36,659 bases of DNA from Leptospiraceae bacterium (GCA_947458405.1 CANGZW010000026.1:1-36659); one strand, 5' to 3'. Shown: positions 3,566 to 12,075, counted from the first letter of the stretch. Notes: generated by a model from the sequence alone, not told the origin. Program-made: numbers and translations.

Positions 3566-6500
3566 ATGGGTATTGAACTTTTTCTTCCTTTTCTAGCCAG
3601 TTTATCTGTCATATGGTTTCTACGTAAAGTAGATGGCAGTGGATTTCGTGTGGGTCAACTCAAAAAATATTCACAAAAATTACAGGATGACCTTGATTTA
3701 GCGGCAATGACCGGGGTTCAGGCTGTAAAAGATGCAACCATTGACCTCGAGTTGACGAACAAACAAGCCAAAAAGCTGGTCACTGATCTGCAGGCACAGG
3801 CAACAGAGACCACTCTTCTCTTGGAAAACCTAAAGGCACATAAGGACTATTTGGATAATGTATTATCTGAATTGAAAGATGTTGTAAAAGTTTCCTCTGA
3901 GATACGGGAAGAATCCCGTTATGTTCAAGAAGGAATGGATATAATACGTTCCCATCGAGAAGAGTTAAAGAAAATGGACTCGGAAAATAATCAAATTAGA
4001 GACCAAGTCAAAGAATTAATTCATGGATTTAATGAAAAGATCAATACACGTACTACAGATATTCTAGAATCCCTTGCATCTAAGATTGTTGAGTTGGAGA
4101 ACTTGCTTGAAGTTAAGTCAGACAAAGTAGATGAGACCCTCAAAGATTTAGCAGATAATTATAAACATAGACTTTCCGAAGAAGTGGAATCCATAATTAC
4201 AGAGACAGTGGAAAGAGTTGAACTTGCGAATAATCGAATTGAGGACTTTACAAATTTTGTTAGAGATGGAGAAAAAAGTTTAGAAGTTAGATTAACGAGA
4301 TACAAAGATACCACAGATTCGATCTCAGATAGAATAGAAAGATTAGATGCAAGATTAGAAGAAAAAGCAGAAACTGTTGGAGAATCCGTCCAAGCAAGAC
4401 TTGTATCCTTTGAAAAGAAATTCCAGGAAAAATTTGAGTCTATATTTGACCAATTATCTCAAAACAAAGAAGCTTTCTTAAGTGGAGTGAAAATGGAAAT
4501 TGATCTCATGCGAACTGATGTAGAGAGCATGAGCCTGGAAATTATGACAAGAAGGGATGAAATTCTTACTGAAGCTCGAAGACAATCCGAGTTGGTACTG
4601 AGTAGTATCAATAATTTTCATGAGAAATTTATCGATGCGGAAAACAGAATCATCAAAACCGCTGAAATGAAGAGGGGTGACTTACAAAAAGAAATCAGTC
4701 GTTTTGAGAATGAATTCAAAAATACCTCCAATACTTTTTATTCCGAGGCTGACTCAATTAAAGAATCAATTATGAAAAATTTACACAATTTTGAATCAGA
4801 TTTGAGTAAGTCTTTAAATTATACAGAAAGTATCACAAGAGAAAAATTCAATTCCTTAAGAGAAGAGTTAGAAGAATCTATGCTAAGTCTTCACGGCAGA
4901 AAAAAAAGTGAGTTCTTAGATGAACTCGCCTCTATTGATCTAAAAATAAAAGAGTTAACTCGAGACACAACAGATAAAATTAAGAATGTTGATGACCATT
5001 TCTATGACTTAAAAAATGCTCTGATGGAATCCTCCAAAGATATAATTCACCAGGTCGAAAAGGAAGTGGATAGACTTTCTAGCGAACTTGATGGAGAGAA
5101 GAATAGAGTTGATCAAAAAATAGAATTCTTGGCAGAAGGTTGGAATTCAGAACTAGAAAGAATTAAAAATAGAACAAACAAAGATGTAGATTCTCTTACT
5201 TCAAGACTAAAAGACATTCACGTAGAAGGAAAAGATCTTGCTGATGAGATACGTTCAGAGTACAACAGCGGTAAAAATCAATTGGATCTCATGCTCAAGA
5301 AAGCGGATGATAATCTTAGAAACGAGATTGATTCATTGACAGATGAAGTACAAAATAAACTTAAAAAATCACAGGATGAAGCAGAAATAATTCTTGCCCG
5401 TCTGCAAAAAGCAGGGATAAACCTATACGAAAAGCAAGAATCCCTTCTGGGCGATTATGGTGAAAGGTTGTATCGTGATCTACAAGCTAAACTCGAAAAA
5501 ACACGTTATGAATCCGAAGAACTTTTGGATGACATTCAAAAAGCAGGTAATAATCTTCTGGAAAAACAAGAAGAGAAAATCGATAAATTAAAAAGTACAA
5601 TTGATGAAAGAATTTCCAGACAATTGACTGTATTACTCGACAAAGGACAACTTCAGTTAGACCAATTAGAAGAGAGAATAGCTACCTATGTTTCCGAAGT
5701 TAAAAATAATTTGGAATCAAATCTAAAAAATTCAAAGGATGATAGCGAAAGACAAATTGCTAATTTCAATTCTCAAATGCAAAGATCATTTAGAGATATG
5801 GAGAAGGTAAACAAAGAGTTTATTGATAGCAATAGAGAAGAATTCCAAAAATCTAGAGAAGAATTATCTAAAATTCACATTACAATTGAAAGCGAAATGG
5901 ATAAAGTCACGAGACTCAAGGGAACTTTACTAGAAGATTTCTCAAGAGAAGAAAGTAAGTTGAAGTATGTGATGGAAAAAATAACTGAAAAAATGAGAGA
6001 AATTGAATCATTCTCGGATACAATTCGTAATACAGATAAGGTTATGAGAGAATCCGAGGGAACTGTTCAAACTCTAAATGTATTAATGGATAAGCTTAGG
6101 GAAGAAGGTCATAATCTCCAAGAATATTCTAGAGGCTTAGACCAATTAAAATTAGCTAAAAAAGATATGGATACAGAGATTAGACTTCTTGAAACTCAAA
6201 AAATACGAATTGAGCAAATAGAAAATGAGCTAAACCGTGCTACAAATGTATGTGATCTTATTAACAAAAGAACAGAAGAATTGCATGATAAAATTAGCAC
6301 AATTACTTCCATAGATAACAAGCTCGTAGATATGACAAGGATGCAGGATGAGTTGGAATCAAAAATTAGTGAAGTCAAGGCGGCTTCTTCTAAGATTTAT
6401 GAAATCTCCCAATCACTCCAGAGCACGAATCGTATGGGAGATCAAATTTCAGAAAGACTTCTATCGCTAGAACGTGAACTTGAAAGAGTTGAATCAAAAG

Positions 6501-7012
6501 AAGTAGAGATATCAGATCATATATTCACTATAGCTGAAAAGGCAAATGAAATTGAATCAAGAAGTATGGACTTAAAATCTGTTGAGGCAAAGTTTGATAA
6601 GGTTGAACATTTAATGATGGACTTGTCTACGAAGCACAAACAGGTAGCAACCATGCAAAAGAGAATAGAAACTCTAAAAGCAGACTCAGAAGAAATGCGA
6701 GATGGTTTAGAAGGATTATTGGTCGAAGCAGATGATAAATTTCATAAATTAAGTGATTTTCTTAACAATATAGAAGGTTTTATTGAAACAAGGGGAACTG
6801 GAACTTCACCAACTCCTCAACGTCCTACAGTAATACAACCACCTCCAAAAGCCACAACTCCCCGAGAGCGGGAAGCTATGATTGAAATGAGTAAAAAAAA
6901 GAAAGCAACTGTATTAAATCTTTATGAAAATTATTCATGGTCAACGGATACAATTGCAGAAAAATTAAATATGGAAAAATCAATGGTGGAAGCAATTATA
7001 CATGGGAGATAA
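3566..7012 (+). CDS. SpiroCoCo-type giant coiled-coil protein with N-terminal membrane anchor and C-terminal HTH-like motif
   Basis: A 1148-residue protein. Residues ~3-20 form a hydrophobic membrane anchor followed by basic residues. Residues ~35-1070 are almost continuous charged heptad-type coiled coil, rich in E, K, D, S, L and I and nearly free of Pro and Cys. A Pro/Thr-rich linker (~1080-1103) leads to a compact basic C-terminal segment that reads as a helix-turn-helix: KKKATVLNLYENY then IAEKLNMEKSMVEAIIHGR. Filament-forming coiled-coil proteins are characteristic of spirochaetes, and NCBI uses the name SpiroCoCo for such proteins. The published spirochaetal protein Scc forms filaments and binds nucleic acid, but homology to it is not established here. 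An internal near-repeat (KAGxNLxEKQE) recurs at ~613 and ~656. The start lacks an obvious ribosome binding site. It probably acts as a cytoskeletal or nucleoid-linked scaffold at the inner membrane (inference). Confidence 0.85.
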   Translation: MGIELFLPFLASLSVIWFLRKVDGSGFRVGQLKKYSQKLQDDLDLAAMTGVQAVKDATIDLELTNKQAKKLVTDLQAQATETTLLLENLKAHKDYLDNVLSELKDVVKVSSEIREESRYVQEGMDIIRSHREELKKMDSENNQIRDQVKELIHGFNEKINTRTTDILESLASKIVELENLLEVKSDKVDETLKDLADNYKHRLSEEVESIITETVERVELANNRIEDFTNFVRDGEKSLEVRLTRYKDTTDSISDRIERLDARLEEKAETVGESVQARLVSFEKKFQEKFESIFDQLSQNKEAFLSGVKMEIDLMRTDVESMSLEIMTRRDEILTEARRQSELVLSSINNFHEKFIDAENRIIKTAEMKRGDLQKEISRFENEFKNTSNTFYSEADSIKESIMKNLHNFESDLSKSLNYTESITREKFNSLREELEESMLSLHGRKKSEFLDELASIDLKIKELTRDTTDKIKNVDDHFYDLKNALMESSKDIIHQVEKEVDRLSSELDGEKNRVDQKIEFLAEGWNSELERIKNRTNKDVDSLTSRLKDIHVEGKDLADEIRSEYNSGKNQLDLMLKKADDNLRNEIDSLTDEVQNKLKKSQDEAEIILARLQKAGINLYEKQESLLGDYGERLYRDLQAKLEKTRYESEELLDDIQKAGNNLLEKQEEKIDKLKSTIDERISRQLTVLLDKGQLQLDQLEERIATYVSEVKNNLESNLKNSKDDSERQIANFNSQMQRSFRDMEKVNKEFIDSNREEFQKSREELSKIHITIESEMDKVTRLKGTLLEDFSREESKLKYVMEKITEKMREIESFSDTIRNTDKVMRESEGTVQTLNVLMDKLREEGHNLQEYSRGLDQLKLAKKDMDTEIRLLETQKIRIEQIENELNRATNVCDLINKRTEELHDKISTITSIDNKLVDMTRMQDELESKISEVKAASSKIYEISQSLQSTNRMGDQISERLLSLERELERVESKEVEISDHIFTIAEKANEIESRSMDLKSVEAKFDKVEHLMMDLSTKHKQVATMQKRIETLKADSEEMRDGLEGLLVEADDKFHKLSDFLNNIEGFIETRGTGTSPTPQRPTVIQPPPKATTPREREAMIEMSKKKKATVLNLYENYSWSTDTIAEKLNMEKSMVEAIIHGR

Positions 7013-7041
7013 AATGTAAATATTGCTCTAAGTTAATAAAA

Positions 7042-7797
7042 CTACTTCTTTTCATTGAGATTCCAATTGTAATCTGTATATTTTATTTTGGCATCTTCTG
7101 GAATTTCAATTTTCATCCCTGATTTAATAAAAGAAATAAGGGATGAATTTTTAGTAAAATCCCCCGAAAACCAATCAAATATTTTAGATATAAATAGAGT
7201 ATTGATAGAACTGTCGTACTTATTTTTACTTTTATCGGCTAAAAAGATTTCCATGGAAGATTGTAATTGAGAATTTAAGGTTTTTGGAATATAAGCAGTT
7301 GAAGCAAGAGGGGGACATCCTATACTTGCACAGACAATTGCAAAGTGAATTTTTGGTTCTTCAAAATCTACTCTCAATTTTGAGTGTTCTATCCAGTCTA
7401 AGTTTCTTTTTTCACCTAATAGTGAAAAAAAATCAGTTTTCCATGCCGCTCCCGGTAAAAATCCAATTTTTCGAATACTAGTCAGGGGGTAGTTATCCAA
7501 AATAAGTTTAATTGTAAAAGCGTTATACGCATTTATTAAAAAGGATAGTTTTTCCTCTTTCGAGAAGGATGAATACTCTTTTAAGGAGACCAAACTTAAA
7601 TCATTTAAATATAAATTTAACTTTTCTTCTTCTGTTTTTATTCCTTTATAATCAACCATTCCATTCTTAACATACTTTTTTAAAAGAATATCAAAGTTAG
7701 AATGATTATGATCAAATGAAAATACAGGAAAGATTAATCCCGATAAAGTAAGTGATACGATTAAGTTTAATAAAATAAATTTACTTTTTAGTCTCAT
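7042..7797 (-). CDS. Exported DUF547 protein
   Basis: A 251-residue secreted or periplasmic protein of the DUF547 family. The chosen start is the ATG at 7797, not the ATG at 7812. GGAGAAG lies 7 nt upstream of 7797 and inside the longer version, the start overlaps the previous gene's stop as TAATG, and the shorter form begins with a normal signal peptide (MRLKSKFILLNLIVSLTLSG). Family hallmarks are INAYNAFTIKLIL, the HFAIVCASIGCPPL block, SKIFDWFSGDF and the terminal Y-x-W-NLN. The HFAIVCASIGCPPL block contains a CX4C pair (Cys156 and Cys161). The biochemical role of DUF547 is not established. It is translationally coupled to the VTT-flavoprotein upstream, which suggests a shared redox or envelope function (inference). 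Confidence 0.9.
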   Translation of the reverse strand: MRLKSKFILLNLIVSLTLSGLIFPVFSFDHNHSNFDILLKKYVKNGMVDYKGIKTEEEKLNLYLNDLSLVSLKEYSSFSKEEKLSFLINAYNAFTIKLILDNYPLTSIRKIGFLPGAAWKTDFFSLLGEKRNLDWIEHSKLRVDFEEPKIHFAIVCASIGCPPLASTAYIPKTLNSQLQSSMEIFLADKSKNKYDSSINTLFISKIFDWFSGDFTKNSSLISFIKSGMKIEIPEDAKIKYTDYNWNLNEKK

Positions 7798-9938
7798 TAT
7801 TTTCTTCTCCATTTGTGAAACTCTTCAACAATTTTTAGTAATTTTTCTGGTTTTCTGGCTTTTTTCCAATTACCGGCTACATATTTATTACCTTCGCCCA
7901 TAGTTGGATATGCATGAATAGTACCTAGAATCTTATTGAGACCAATTTTGTACTTCATAGCTAAAACAAATTCAGATAATAGTTCTCCTGCATTGTATCC
8001 AACTATTGTAACACCAAGAATTTTATCCTTACCCGGTTCAGTTAAAACTTTTATAAATCCTTTATTTTCGCTTTCTGTAATCGCTCGATCCAAATCATGA
8101 AGATCATACTTTGTGATCTCAACAGGAATATTTTTTTGGATTGATTCATCTTCCGTTAATCCTACGTGAGAAACTTCGGGATCAGTAAAGGTAGTATATG
8201 GTATTACGGAATAATCAGTCTTAAACTTTATAAATATACCAAAAAGAGCATTAACGGAAGCATACCAGGCTTCATGTGATGCAGTATGGGTCAGTTGAAA
8301 GGGTCCAGCAACATCACCGCAGGCAAAAATATTTGGATAATTGGTTTCCATAAATTCATTTACTACAATAGATTTTCTATTACTTATTTTTACTCCCAAT
8401 TCTTCCAATCCAAATCCTTCTATTCGGGGTTTCCTTCCCATACTAAGTAGTACATGATCAAATTCTATTTCTTTAATTATTGAATTTGATTCAACTTTAG
8501 CAATATAGTTATTATTATTTTTTATAAATTCAATTAATTTATGAGAAGTTAGTATAGTAATACCTTCATCAGTTAAAATCTTATTCATAAAAGAGGAAAC
8601 ATCTTTATCATCTCTTGGAAGAATTTTATCTGCAAATTCAATCAAAGTTACTTTAGATCCTAATCTAGAAAAAGCCTGTGCCATTTCGCAACCAATGGCA
8701 CCTCCTCCAATTATAAGGAAACTTTTAGGTAGGCTTTTAAGATTCCAAAGAGTCTCTGAGGTTAAATAGGGAACTTGGTTAATTCCAGGGATATTGGGGA
8801 TAAGTGGGCTTGCCCCTGTTGCGATAACTATGTTCTTGGTTGTAAGAATTTTTCCATTTACTTCTATTTCATAAGGAGATAAAATTTTAGCTGAACCTGT
8901 TATACAATCAACTCCTAATTTTGAATATCTGTCTATTGAATCATTTGGTTCGATAGTTTTGATAATATTAGAAACTCTATTCATTATATCTACAAAATCA
9001 AAATCGATATCTACCTTTTTTAATCCAAAATCCTTTGCTTTTTTTGAGAGATGAACTTTTTTTGCACTTGATATGATTGCTTTAGATGGAACACATCCAT
9101 AGTTCAAACAATCTCCACCCATTTTATGTTTTTCAATTAGAGCAACTTTAGCCTTTACAGTTGATGCGATATAAGATGTTACAAGTCCTGCTGCTCCACC
9201 ACCGATTGCGATTATATTATAATCAAAATTATTGGGTTTTTTATAGTTTTTATAAATTTTATTTATTTTAATTTTATTTACTATAAATTTTGCAAATAAA
9301 GGAAGTAGTCCTAATGCTAGAAAAGATAAGAGTAGAGGAAGGGACACAATATCTTTAGGATTATTTAAGGATGCTAGTTGTGTTCCTGCATTGACATAAA
9401 CTATTGTTCCTGGTAACATCCCAATTTGACTAACTAAGAAAAACTGAAATACAGAAATTTTTGAAATGCCCATCAATAGATTGATTAAGAAAAAAGGAAA
9501 AGCGGGAATTAACCGCAAAGAGAGTAAGTAGAATTTACCATCTTCTTCTAAACCTTTATTTATGGATTCCAGAGATGATCCAAACTTAGTTTGGACTAAG
9601 TCTCTAAATAAATATCTTGAAAATAAAAAACTGAGTGTAGCTCCTAAGGTACTTGCAAATGAAACTAGTATAGTACCGGTAACTACTCCAAATATAGCAC
9701 CTGCCGCCAAAGTAAAAATTGTTGCCCCAGGAAAAGATATAGCTACACTTACCACATATACTACAAAATATATGATTATGAATAAAATCTCATTTTCATG
9801 ATAGGTACTTATAAAAGTATCCTTTTGGGATTTTAAATATTCAAAGTTTAATAAATCTTGTAAACCGTAATACCTCGCTATAATGAAGAGGATAATTAAT
9901 AGAAATAGAATTAGAATTTGTTTAAATATTTTATTCAA
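7797..9938 (-). CDS. VTT/TVP38 membrane domain fused to FAD-dependent pyridine nucleotide-disulfide oxidoreductase
   Basis: A 713-residue two-domain fusion. Residues ~1-230 are a DedA/TVP38-TMEM64-type (VTT) integral membrane domain with a first helix at ~6-23, a conserved G-rich segment (FPGATIFTLAAGAIFG) and helices through ~225. Residues ~240-713 resemble dihydrolipoamide dehydrogenase or mercuric reductase: FAD-binding IAIGGGAAGLVTSY, redox-active GGDCLNYGCVPSK (Cys277, Cys282), NAD(P)-binding IIGGGAIGCEMAQAF, FACGDVAGP for the FAD, and a C-terminal dimer domain with HAYPTMGEG as the His-Glu pair. The NmerA and C-terminal Cys-Cys mercury motifs are absent, so mercuric reductase is unlikely. 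The start is TTG at 9938, preceded by AAGGA at 9 nt. Fusions of this type occur in other bacteria; the substrate is unknown. It is the first gene of an operon with DUF547. Confidence 0.92.
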   Translation of the reverse strand: MNKIFKQILILFLLIILFIIARYYGLQDLLNFEYLKSQKDTFISTYHENEILFIIIYFVVYVVSVAISFPGATIFTLAAGAIFGVVTGTILVSFASTLGATLSFLFSRYLFRDLVQTKFGSSLESINKGLEEDGKFYLLSLRLIPAFPFFLINLLMGISKISVFQFFLVSQIGMLPGTIVYVNAGTQLASLNNPKDIVSLPLLLSFLALGLLPLFAKFIVNKIKINKIYKNYKKPNNFDYNIIAIGGGAAGLVTSYIASTVKAKVALIEKHKMGGDCLNYGCVPSKAIISSAKKVHLSKKAKDFGLKKVDIDFDFVDIMNRVSNIIKTIEPNDSIDRYSKLGVDCITGSAKILSPYEIEVNGKILTTKNIVIATGASPLIPNIPGINQVPYLTSETLWNLKSLPKSFLIIGGGAIGCEMAQAFSRLGSKVTLIEFADKILPRDDKDVSSFMNKILTDEGITILTSHKLIEFIKNNNNYIAKVESNSIIKEIEFDHVLLSMGRKPRIEGFGLEELGVKISNRKSIVVNEFMETNYPNIFACGDVAGPFQLTHTASHEAWYASVNALFGIFIKFKTDYSVIPYTTFTDPEVSHVGLTEDESIQKNIPVEITKYDLHDLDRAITESENKGFIKVLTEPGKDKILGVTIVGYNAGELLSEFVLAMKYKIGLNKILGTIHAYPTMGEGNKYVAGNWKKARKPEKLLKIVEEFHKWRRK
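7804..7810 (-). promoter_or_regulatory. Shine-Dalgarno that fixes the DUF547 start
   Basis: GGAGAAG on the minus strand, placed ideally for the ATG at 7797 and overlapping the alternative ATG at 7812, which it therefore argues against. It lies within the last codons of the upstream flavoprotein gene. Confidence 0.7.
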
Positions 9939-10007: not shown

Positions 10008-10229
10008 TTAGTCTTTATTTTTTTTATATGCATAAATAAGTGATAAAACAGTTATAAAAATATCATCACCCCAGCCTAAAATCGGAATTATATCTGGAAT
10101 AAAATCTATTGGTGATAGATCATAGAAAAAAGCAAAAGCTATTATTCCGATAATTTTAATATACTTATATTTATCTTTTCTTTTAGAATTATCCTCATTA
10201 GGATTCGTAGTATCTTTTATTTCTTTCAT
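10008..10229 (-). CDS. DUF1232 (YkvA-type) small membrane protein
   Basis: A 73-residue protein with a charged N-terminus (~1-22), a hydrophobic helix (~25-37), and the DUF1232 signature DLSPIDFIPDIIPILGWGDD followed by a second hydrophobic helix and a basic tail. The biochemical function of the family is unknown. Its start ATG overlaps the symporter stop by 4 nt, so it is the last gene of the DUF485-symporter operon and translationally coupled to it. Confidence 0.88.
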   Translation of the reverse strand: MKEIKDTTNPNEDNSKRKDKYKYIKIIGIIAFAFFYDLSPIDFIPDIIPILGWGDDIFITVLSLIYAYKKNKD

Positions 10230-11767
10230 TCTGCACCTATACCGAGATACATTCTCACTTTTTCTAATTCATATTTTTTCTGTGCCTCTACTTCAGGATA
10301 AATTATAGAAAAAATATATCCAAAAAGAAAAGACAGGGTCATGGAAATAATAGCAGGATTTTTTAAAGGAATTATCGCAGATTCATTCTTTAAAATATCA
10401 ACCCAAACTGTAGGACTGAGAATAATGAGTAGTACAGCACTAATTGATCCTGAGAGAATTGAGGCAATCGCACCATTAGTAGAAAAATTTTTCCAGATAA
10501 TTGATAAAAAAAGTGATGGAAAATTTCCACTAGCCGCTATAGAAAAAGCAAGTCCCACCAAAAAAGCTACATTTTGATCCTTGAACAATATTCCTAAAGT
10601 TATCGCAATAATTCCAAAAATAATCGTAGCAATTCGGGCGACTTTAACCTGCTCATCTTCACTTGCTTTTCCATCTTTTATGACATTAAAATATATATCA
10701 TGTGATACCGTTGAAGCCGCGGCAAGTGTAAGTCCCGCCACTACAGCTAAAATTGTTGCAAAGGCAACTGCCGCAATAAAACCAAGAAAAGGAGTTCCGC
10801 CTAACATTTCTGCTAATAATGGAGCGGACATATTTCCACCTTTGTCAATACTTTGGATAAAATCTCTCCCCAGTATCACTGAAGCAGAAAACCCAACTAC
10901 CGGGATGATCAAATAAAAGTATCCTATAAAAGTTGTAGCATAAAGAATAGATTTTCTAGCTTCTCTAGCATCCGGAACAGTAAAGAATCTCATCAATATA
11001 TGCGGAAGTCCTAATAAACCTAGCATTAATGCTAAACCTAAAGAAATAGAATCAATAGGATTAGTTATAAATCCACCGGGTTCAAGTGCTGAGTTTCCAT
11101 ACATCTTTTCCACTTCTATATATACATTCCCAATATTAAAGTCGAATTTTCTTAAAGCTAAAAGTAACAAAAGTGTAACACCAAATAAAAGTAAGAATGC
11201 TTTTATGATTTGAACCCATGTAGTTGCAATCATCCCACCAAACAATACATAAAGAAGCATTACGGTTCCAACAGCAATTACTGCAAAATGATAAGGTAAA
11301 CCAAACATAAGTTCAATAAGTTTTCCTGAACCAACGATTTGAGCAATGGTGTAAGTTATCGTTACTAAAATACTAGAAATGGATGACGTAATACGAATTG
11401 GTTTTTGTCGTAAACGAAAAGCTAAAACATCAGCAAATGTATATTTACCTAGATTTCTGAGTGGCTCTGCTATTAAAAACATTAATGCAGGCCAACCAAC
11501 TAACCAACCAACTGCATAAATCATTCCATCATAACCTTTTAAAGCAACCATACCTGATATTCCCAAAAAAGAAGCCGCTGACATATAATCCCCCGCAAGG
11601 GCTAATCCGTTCTGAAATCCTGTAACACTGCGTCCAGCCGCATAAAATTCAGAAGATGTTTTCGTTTTTTTTGCTGCCCAATATGTGATATAAAGAGTAA
11701 GCAATACAAAAACGGCAAAGAAAGAAATAGATGTAATATTAGGTTGTCCTAGAGAAGATGTACTCAT
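10226..11767 (-). CDS. actP: Sodium:solute symporter, acetate permease (ActP)-like
   Basis: A 513-residue, ~13-helix transporter of the SSS family. Family features include the early S-SEFYAAGRSV--FQNGLALAGDYMSAASFLG region (substrate and Na+ site of TM1), GxIxAxxWxQ-type GGMIATTWVQIIKAFLL, and A-G-T-AAASTVSHDIY in the middle of the protein. The best match by eye is the cation/acetate symporter ActP, and the pairing with an upstream DUF485 protein repeats the E. coli yjcH-actP arrangement. No acetyl-CoA synthetase gene is seen here. It overlaps both operon neighbours by 4 nt. The substrate (acetate or another short carboxylate) is inferred from the family and the DUF485 partner. Confidence 0.9.
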   Translation of the reverse strand: MSTSSLGQPNITSISFFAVFVLLTLYITYWAAKKTKTSSEFYAAGRSVTGFQNGLALAGDYMSAASFLGISGMVALKGYDGMIYAVGWLVGWPALMFLIAEPLRNLGKYTFADVLAFRLRQKPIRITSSISSILVTITYTIAQIVGSGKLIELMFGLPYHFAVIAVGTVMLLYVLFGGMIATTWVQIIKAFLLLFGVTLLLLLALRKFDFNIGNVYIEVEKMYGNSALEPGGFITNPIDSISLGLALMLGLLGLPHILMRFFTVPDAREARKSILYATTFIGYFYLIIPVVGFSASVILGRDFIQSIDKGGNMSAPLLAEMLGGTPFLGFIAAVAFATILAVVAGLTLAAASTVSHDIYFNVIKDGKASEDEQVKVARIATIIFGIIAITLGILFKDQNVAFLVGLAFSIAASGNFPSLFLSIIWKNFSTNGAIASILSGSISAVLLIILSPTVWVDILKNESAIIPLKNPAIISMTLSFLFGYIFSIIYPEVEAQKKYELEKVRMYLGIGAE

Positions 11768-12075
11768 ATCTTCTCTTCTTTTAATAAGGTTTTGAGGTGA
11801 TCAACATCTTTATCGTATGACATATTCGCCCAATTAACATAAATTAGTGTTAGTATCCAAGAAAAAAGTATAACAAGTCCTGCCAATACAAGTCCTATAT
11901 TTGTGGATCCTCCAACTTTTACTATCATCAAATCTCTTTTGAAGGCTATAAGAGAAATATATCCGTAGTATGTAAAAAATAATAAAAAAAGTAAAAAAAA
12001 GCTCATTGTCCATCTTTTTCGAACTAATGCATGGAAAATTGGTAACTCGATTAACTCATGAGGAGAATGTTTCAT
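11764..12075 (-). CDS. DUF485 (YjcH-like) inner-membrane protein
   Basis: A 103-residue protein with two hydrophobic helices (~24-46 and ~57-80) and the family pattern F-x-x-LVRKRWTMSFFL near the start and LIYVNWANMSYDKDVD near the end. DUF485 proteins are encoded next to ActP-type symporters in many bacteria and are thought to accompany the transporter. The start at 12075 has AGGA 9 nt upstream. Its stop overlaps the symporter start (ATGA). It is the first gene of the three-gene operon. Confidence 0.9.
   Translation of the reverse strand: MKHSPHELIELPIFHALVRKRWTMSFFLLFLLFFTYYGYISLIAFKRDLMIVKVGGSTNIGLVLAGLVILFSWILTLIYVNWANMSYDKDVDHLKTLLKEEKI

Follow-up and report, generated by a model that had tools for sequence, protein, structure and literature searches.

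What might two proteins do together when one is a flavoprotein fused to a membrane domain, the other is an exported protein of the DUF547 family, and each carries a CX4C motif? The question is raised by two translationally coupled genes in a 36,659-nucleotide stretch of DNA from a Leptospiraceae bacterium (here called the window). The original prediction was that electrons pass from NAD(P)H through the VTT membrane domain to a CX4C acceptor outside the cytoplasm, as a disulfide or metalloid relay. The features on which it was built hold up: the open reading frame and the domain calls agree on a VTT domain fused to a reductase with CLNYGC at Cys277/282, the TAATG coupling is seen in the sequence, and CASIGC falls at Cys156/161 of the exported protein when translation is counted from position 7797 (Table 1).

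An AAAGGA precedes the TTG start of the fusion gene. For the DUF547 gene, an ATG at 7812 is likewise open and would give 256 aa, with Cys156 then numbered as residue 161, but the start at 7797 (251 aa) is the most likely one because a GGAGAAG ribosome-binding site sits within the 3' end of the reductase gene; the junction of the reductase stop and the DUF547 start reads GGAGAAGAAAATAATGAG. Upstream on the same strand (10008-12075, minus) lie genes for a 73-aa IPDxIP-motif protein, perhaps DUF1232-like, and for an acetate symporter of the ActP type and a DUF485 protein with overlapping ends; these genes and the pair may be transcribed together. Convergent with the pair, positions 3566-7012 encode a 1148-aa SpiroCoCo coiled-coil protein (NF047514/NF047515) of a spirochaete family.

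Table 1. Features of the gene pair, in coordinates of the window
Feature	Coordinates	Strand	Description and basis
VTT–flavoprotein fusion	7797..9938	minus	713 aa, TTG start; TVP38/TMEM64, DedA COG0398-like VTT domain plus MerA/dihydrolipoyl-dehydrogenase-like part
VTT membrane domain, ~residues 1-235	9234..9938	minus	Profile match; 0 Cys
CLNYGC, flavoprotein CX4C, Cys277/Cys282	9093..9110	minus	Aligned with MerA and dihydrolipoyl dehydrogenase structures
HAYPTMGEG, Tyr677 at the catalytic-His position of dihydrolipoyl dehydrogenases	7890..7916	minus	Alignment
TAATG stop/start overlap of the fusion and DUF547 genes	7795..7799	minus	Sequence
Exported DUF547 protein	7042..7797	minus	251 aa from the TAATG start
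CASIGC, DUF547 Cys156/Cys161	7315..7332	minus	Invariant in the DUF547 proteins compared

Profile searches place VTT_dom (PF09335) at residues 72-186 of the fusion (79.7 bits, cut-off 33.9), Pyr_redox_2 at residues 240-557 (223 bits), and Pyr_redox_dim at residues 579-683. This domain order and length are those of proteins recorded as bifunctional TVP38/TMEM64/FAD-dependent oxidoreductases (COG0398 + PF07992 + PF02852), a name that records also use for neighbors of DUF547 genes. We infer that the flavoprotein part lies on the cytoplasmic side, since positive charges follow the last hydrophobic segment of the VTT domain, which is itself strongly conserved among relatives. The flavoprotein CX4C is invariant in every full fusion aligned and, set against solved structures, falls on the cysteines that are redox active in MerA and in dihydrolipoyl dehydrogenase. 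An AlphaFold2 model of the whole fusion (pLDDT 65.5, built from seven sequences) was set aside for its poor quality.

The best-scoring solved relative of the flavoprotein is MerA (5x1y, 7e-81), and the likeness extends from the CX4C to a residue near the C terminus. Disulfide reductases of the dihydrolipoyl dehydrogenase type use a His there. At this position, that of the His in the His-Glu dyad, the window flavoprotein and all full-length relatives aligned have Tyr, frame-shifted or truncated frames excepted, and the replacement of the disulfide-reductase His by a MerA-like Tyr naturally suggests a metal(loid) or metalloid-thiol substrate. Three ready identities were nevertheless rejected. 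The name MerA does not fit: the protein has a VTT domain in front, scores below the TIGR02053 equivalog cut-off (395.9 versus 454.45 bits), and is without the C-terminal Cys-Cys that binds Hg(II) in MerA, none of the relatives having a CC among its final 40 residues. Neither does dihydrolipoyl dehydrogenase, despite a score above the TIGR01350 equivalog cut-off (413 versus 408.8), or plain disulfide reductase, given the Tyr in place of the catalytic His.

The partner is a member of PF04784 (83 bits, cut-off 27) with a signal-peptide-like N terminus (MRLKSKFILLNLIVSLTLSGLIFPVFS), and Cys156 and Cys161 are its sole cysteines. A comparison of 106 DUF547 proteins from many phyla, the window's included, finds both without exception, a result that for the first cysteine is partly ascertained because this residue formed part of one of the two retrieval patterns; the second was in neither. 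Other invariant residues are N89, Y91, N92, E137, D213, Y243, and W245. The original prediction called for conservation of these cysteines in paired homologues, and in all 35 proteins with an adjoining flavoprotein or VTT gene they are indeed kept. They are equally kept, however, in all 71 without such a neighbor, so that the Cys pair is a feature of the family and not a signature of pairing. A confident AlphaFold2 model of DUF547 (pLDDT 92.8) returned no match at E < 0.4 and no useful TM-score from the PDB and a viral-model library (Foldseek), and when PDB sequences were searched with the profile of DUF547, spurious myosin matches were all that came up. The papain-like or transglutaminase fold that we had presumed for this family was dropped because the confident model found no PDB or viral-model counterpart.

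Both genes are present in seven of eight genomes examined from the same family, the window's included. The fusion and DUF547 genes are likewise adjacent in Halobacteriovorax, Desulfuromonas, a deltaproteobacterium, and many Proteobacteria; in Delongbacteria, Planctomycetota, and Rhodospirillales, DUF547 adjoins VTT and flavoprotein genes that are not fused. Among 200 genomes of the order to which one Thiobacillus locus belongs (the order sample), the fusion was found in 51, DUF547 in 45, and both in 33 (Fisher 3e-15, a value inflated, like all p values from this sample, by relatedness within the order). DUF547 lies directly downstream of the fusion, on the same strand and at a near-constant distance, in 31 of the 33 genomes with both, or 31 of the 51 with the fusion. 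This survey of co-occurrence bears out the treatment of the two genes as a unit: judged by gene order, they are a widely conserved operon and not a chance arrangement.

The company that this operon keeps points to ArsS, which is the radical SAM enzyme in the biosynthesis of arsenosugars. ArsS from Synechocystis works on arsenic, according to PMC8552651, where Xue 2019 is cited, and PMC12159101, where Cheng 2021 is cited, and the word "arsenosugar" for the lineages considered here derives from family names together with this Synechocystis work. ArsS was found in 48 of the 51 order-sample genomes with the fusion versus 17 of the 149 without it (Fisher 6e-28) and in 42 of the 45 with DUF547 versus 23 of the 155 without it (Fisher 7e-23); leaving out three genomes that had been picked through DUF547 gave p values of 1e-26 and 2e-21, respectively. 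Independent of the inflation of these values is physical linkage, the fusion and ArsS being no more than 6 kb apart in 35 of the 48 genomes that have both. The association was weaker in a sample of 143 genomes taken across the class, with the fusion in 30 of 77 ArsS genomes versus 10 of 66 without ArsS (p = 0.0016). In 28 of these 77 ArsS genomes, a VTT protein, fused or alone, was encoded no more than 12 kb from ArsS, against a chance expectation of about 1 genome by our own arithmetic (1 to 3 VTT genes per ~3 Mb). Separate VTT and flavoprotein genes were also found adjoining ArsS.

What ties the pair to known ArsM/ArsS clusters is that it is inherited along with, and in many cases adjoins, ArsS, glycosyltransferases of TIGR04283 and TIGR04282, the TIGR04169 AhpD-like protein, and ArsM. 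A plasmid of Acinetobacter portensis, for example, carries in order ArsS, the VTT-flavoprotein fusion, DUF547, TIGR04283, TIGR04282, a methyltransferase, and a phosphate-type transporter, and the methyltransferase matches solved structures of the arsenite methyltransferase ArsM (best 1e-99). The metalloid theme of the original prediction thus finds agreement in both the co-occurrence with ArsS and the MerA-type Tyr, and at the level of the family the pair very probably belongs to the ArsS pathway. DUF547 itself has a wider use, since 13 of 50 DUF547 genomes are without ArsS, as are two genomes of the window's own family that contain the pair and have no ArsS above the cut-off (G002, 100% complete, and G004, 75%).

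For the window's own lineage, we compared its genome and 40 relatives, and of these 41 genomes, 23 have DUF547 of the window type, 23 have ArsS above the cut-off, and 20 have both. One genome of the same family (G005) has the full arrangement on one strand, with the VTT-flavoprotein gene at 4958-7105, DUF547 at 7107-7835, a TIGR04169 AhpD-like gene at 7877-8209, ArsS at 8212-9174, and a TIGR04283-like glycosyltransferase at 9245-9913. The window genome has ArsS (G000:C3:50134-51015; 421 bits, cut-off 300), the TIGR04169 AhpD-like protein (181, cut-off 120), a glycosyltransferase that scores below the TIGR04283 cut-off (109.5 versus 182), and ArsM (341, cut-off 263). Unlike in the contiguous ArsM/ArsS clusters, the pair in the window is not physically linked to ArsS: it is on contig C26, the AhpD-like, ArsS, and glycosyltransferase genes stand together on C3, and ArsM is on a third contig. 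Because these genes are on other contigs, the window holds, by gene content, the membrane half of the pathway, set apart from the remainder. The window copy of the pair is probably a pathway member as well.

Variants of the module indicate how its parts may be arranged. At one locus (L204; G062:C33, 1039-2487), a single open reading frame encodes a VTT-DUF547 fusion of 482 aa, with the CX4C intact and one extra hydrophobic segment joining the two domains; the flavoprotein is encoded by a separate adjoining gene, amid a cluster of PiT, ArsM-like, MtnP, and glycosyltransferase genes. From this fusion and its adjoining flavoprotein gene, VTT, flavoprotein, and DUF547 look like one functional unit, with the flavin inside and DUF547 outside. 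A second apparent VTT-DUF547 fusion (G248) proved to be three adjacent genes, which leaves L204 as the sole fusion standing. At three other loci (L023, L025, and L079), in Pseudoalteromonas, Catenovulum, and a deltaproteobacterium, the pair is accompanied by an ABC transporter with a PRK11622-type binding protein and by a CDP-alcohol phosphatidyltransferase, and in L023 and L025, the Pseudoalteromonas and Catenovulum loci, there is additionally a fatty-acid-hydroxylase-family protein. These neighbors hint at an arsenolipid or other lipid-linked product.

In the view that we favor, the pair serves an ArsS-type (arsenosugar) pathway as its module in the membrane and envelope, and we regard this assignment, taken jointly with the following outline of a mechanism, as reasonably probable. 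The flavoprotein, anchored by the VTT domain, would sit on the cytoplasmic face, where it would use NAD(P)H and its CX4C to maintain in reduced form an arsenical that is methylated or adenosylated, or else a thiol attached to that arsenical. COG0398 DedA proteins resemble eukaryotic lipid scramblases, and scramblase activity has been proposed for them (PMC10127716); by analogy with DedA/TMEM41B proteins, the VTT domain would handle or translocate a lipid-soluble or lipid-linked form. On the outer face, the invariant Cys pair of DUF547 would bind or process the arsenical or a disulfide. The separate steps are more tentative than the assignment. That the flavoprotein works on an arsenical or its thiol carrier is a finely balanced suggestion that leans slightly toward doubt, and that the VTT domain moves product rather than electrons is a little more doubtful still.

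The alternative that survives best is the originally predicted transfer of NAD(P)H electrons from the flavoprotein CX4C over the membrane to the CX4C of DUF547 outside, which we now consider unlikely. Such a relay would resemble CcdA and DsbD in having a cytoplasmic reductant, an exported partner with a Cys pair, and a membrane protein between them, and it would profit from the invariance of the cysteines in both CX4C motifs, from the VTT-DUF547 fusion, in which DUF547 forms the outward-facing part of one protein with the VTT domain, and from the CcdA and thioredoxin genes near some clusters. DUF547 also recurs beside NAD(P)H flavoproteins of two kinds, MerA-like at 32 loci and NirB/NorW-like, mostly directly beside DUF547, at 15 of 106 loci, with no locus of the 106 having both. 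The latter kind gives the best argument left for the relay: it forms a second module, mostly in Bacteroidota (L087, L088, L096, L099, L103, L114, L115, L116, L125, L139, L145, L034, L036, and L045), in which a rhodanese and a membrane polyferredoxin, a plausible electron carrier, are usual; in the Bacteroidota examples, the genes run in the order rhodanese, DUF547, NirB/NorW-like flavoprotein, polyferredoxin, mostly at loci without ArsS.

Passage of electrons through the VTT domain itself fares poorly. CcdA and DsbD have cysteines in the membrane, whereas the VTT domain of the window protein (residues 1-235) has none, no Cys is conserved in this domain among the aligned relatives, and no recognized cofactor site was seen in it, which argues against a thiol relay. 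No conductor is visible in the VTT module between the cytoplasmic flavin and DUF547 outside, and in the second module it is the polyferredoxin, rather than any VTT domain, that would conduct. The cysteines of DUF547, moreover, are just as invariant where no flavoprotein is near. What the second module does support, by pairing DUF547 with a NirB/NorW-like flavoprotein and polyferredoxin, is a redox role for DUF547 in general, in association with membrane redox proteins. We speculate, as a rather unlikely extension of the arsenosugar reading, that DUF547, for which no solved fold was matched, works on the outer face, as an enzyme or as an acceptor that binds the arsenical, within a VTT/flavoprotein/DUF547 membrane module whose task at the envelope is to reduce an arsenosugar or arsenolipid and to export or complete it, and that DUF547 proteins generally are terminal partners of membrane flavoprotein redox modules.

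A second alternative is that the chemistry is of the ArsS type on another element, for example yielding an organoselenium product, with "arsenosugar" being a database label. In its favor are the name of the ArsS model, rSAM_SeCys, and a pair of ArsS genes that each contain one in-frame TGA, as in selenoproteins (G055:C164:19577-20473 and G049:C158:8774-9676). The close homologue of solved arsenite methyltransferases in the Acinetobacter cluster, the ArsM in the window's genome, and the action of Synechocystis ArsS on arsenic, as given in the two sources cited above, all speak for arsenic, and we consider this alternative improbable. Least probable of all is that DUF547 is an operon bystander and that the fusion scrambles phospholipids, its redox domain being linked to aerobic metabolism, for although such fusions have been named the commonest in COG0398 and tied to aerobic metabolism (PMC10127716), a reading that differs from the ArsS link found here, the ArsS co-occurrence (48 of 51) with its 35 close linkages, the near-constant spacing of DUF547 downstream in 31 genomes, and the existence of a VTT-DUF547 fusion all stand against it.

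The components and the fusion were already known. The literature searched, with most subscription journals outside it, did not join TVP38 or DedA with arsenosugars or link the bifunctional fusion to DUF547 or ArsS, and the DUF547 literature searched had no arsenic subject, judged by title. ArsS genes are widespread in bacteria, and to our knowledge the later steps of the pathway, and those by which arsenosugars are exported or attached to lipid, are largely unassigned. The arsenosugar reading would tie to this pathway two families without assigned function, the commonest COG0398 DedA fusion and DUF547, and would give both proteins a testable role, offering arsenic biochemists specific genes and DedA researchers a substrate class.

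Plasmids and divergent DUF547 proteins provide some further observations. A complete cluster of ArsM, ArsS, the VTT-flavoprotein fusion, and DUF547 is carried by a plasmid that has NDM-1 in its name and was typed as mobilizable (L024; NZ_CP096121.1, pJNE5-X3_NDM-1). A third context of DUF547 is seen on Burkholderia and Cupriavidus plasmids (L026 and L027), where a divergent DUF547 gene that overlaps or just follows a radical SAM gene lies near ArsS, and at L195, where such a DUF547 gene lies beside the VTT-flavoprotein fusion.
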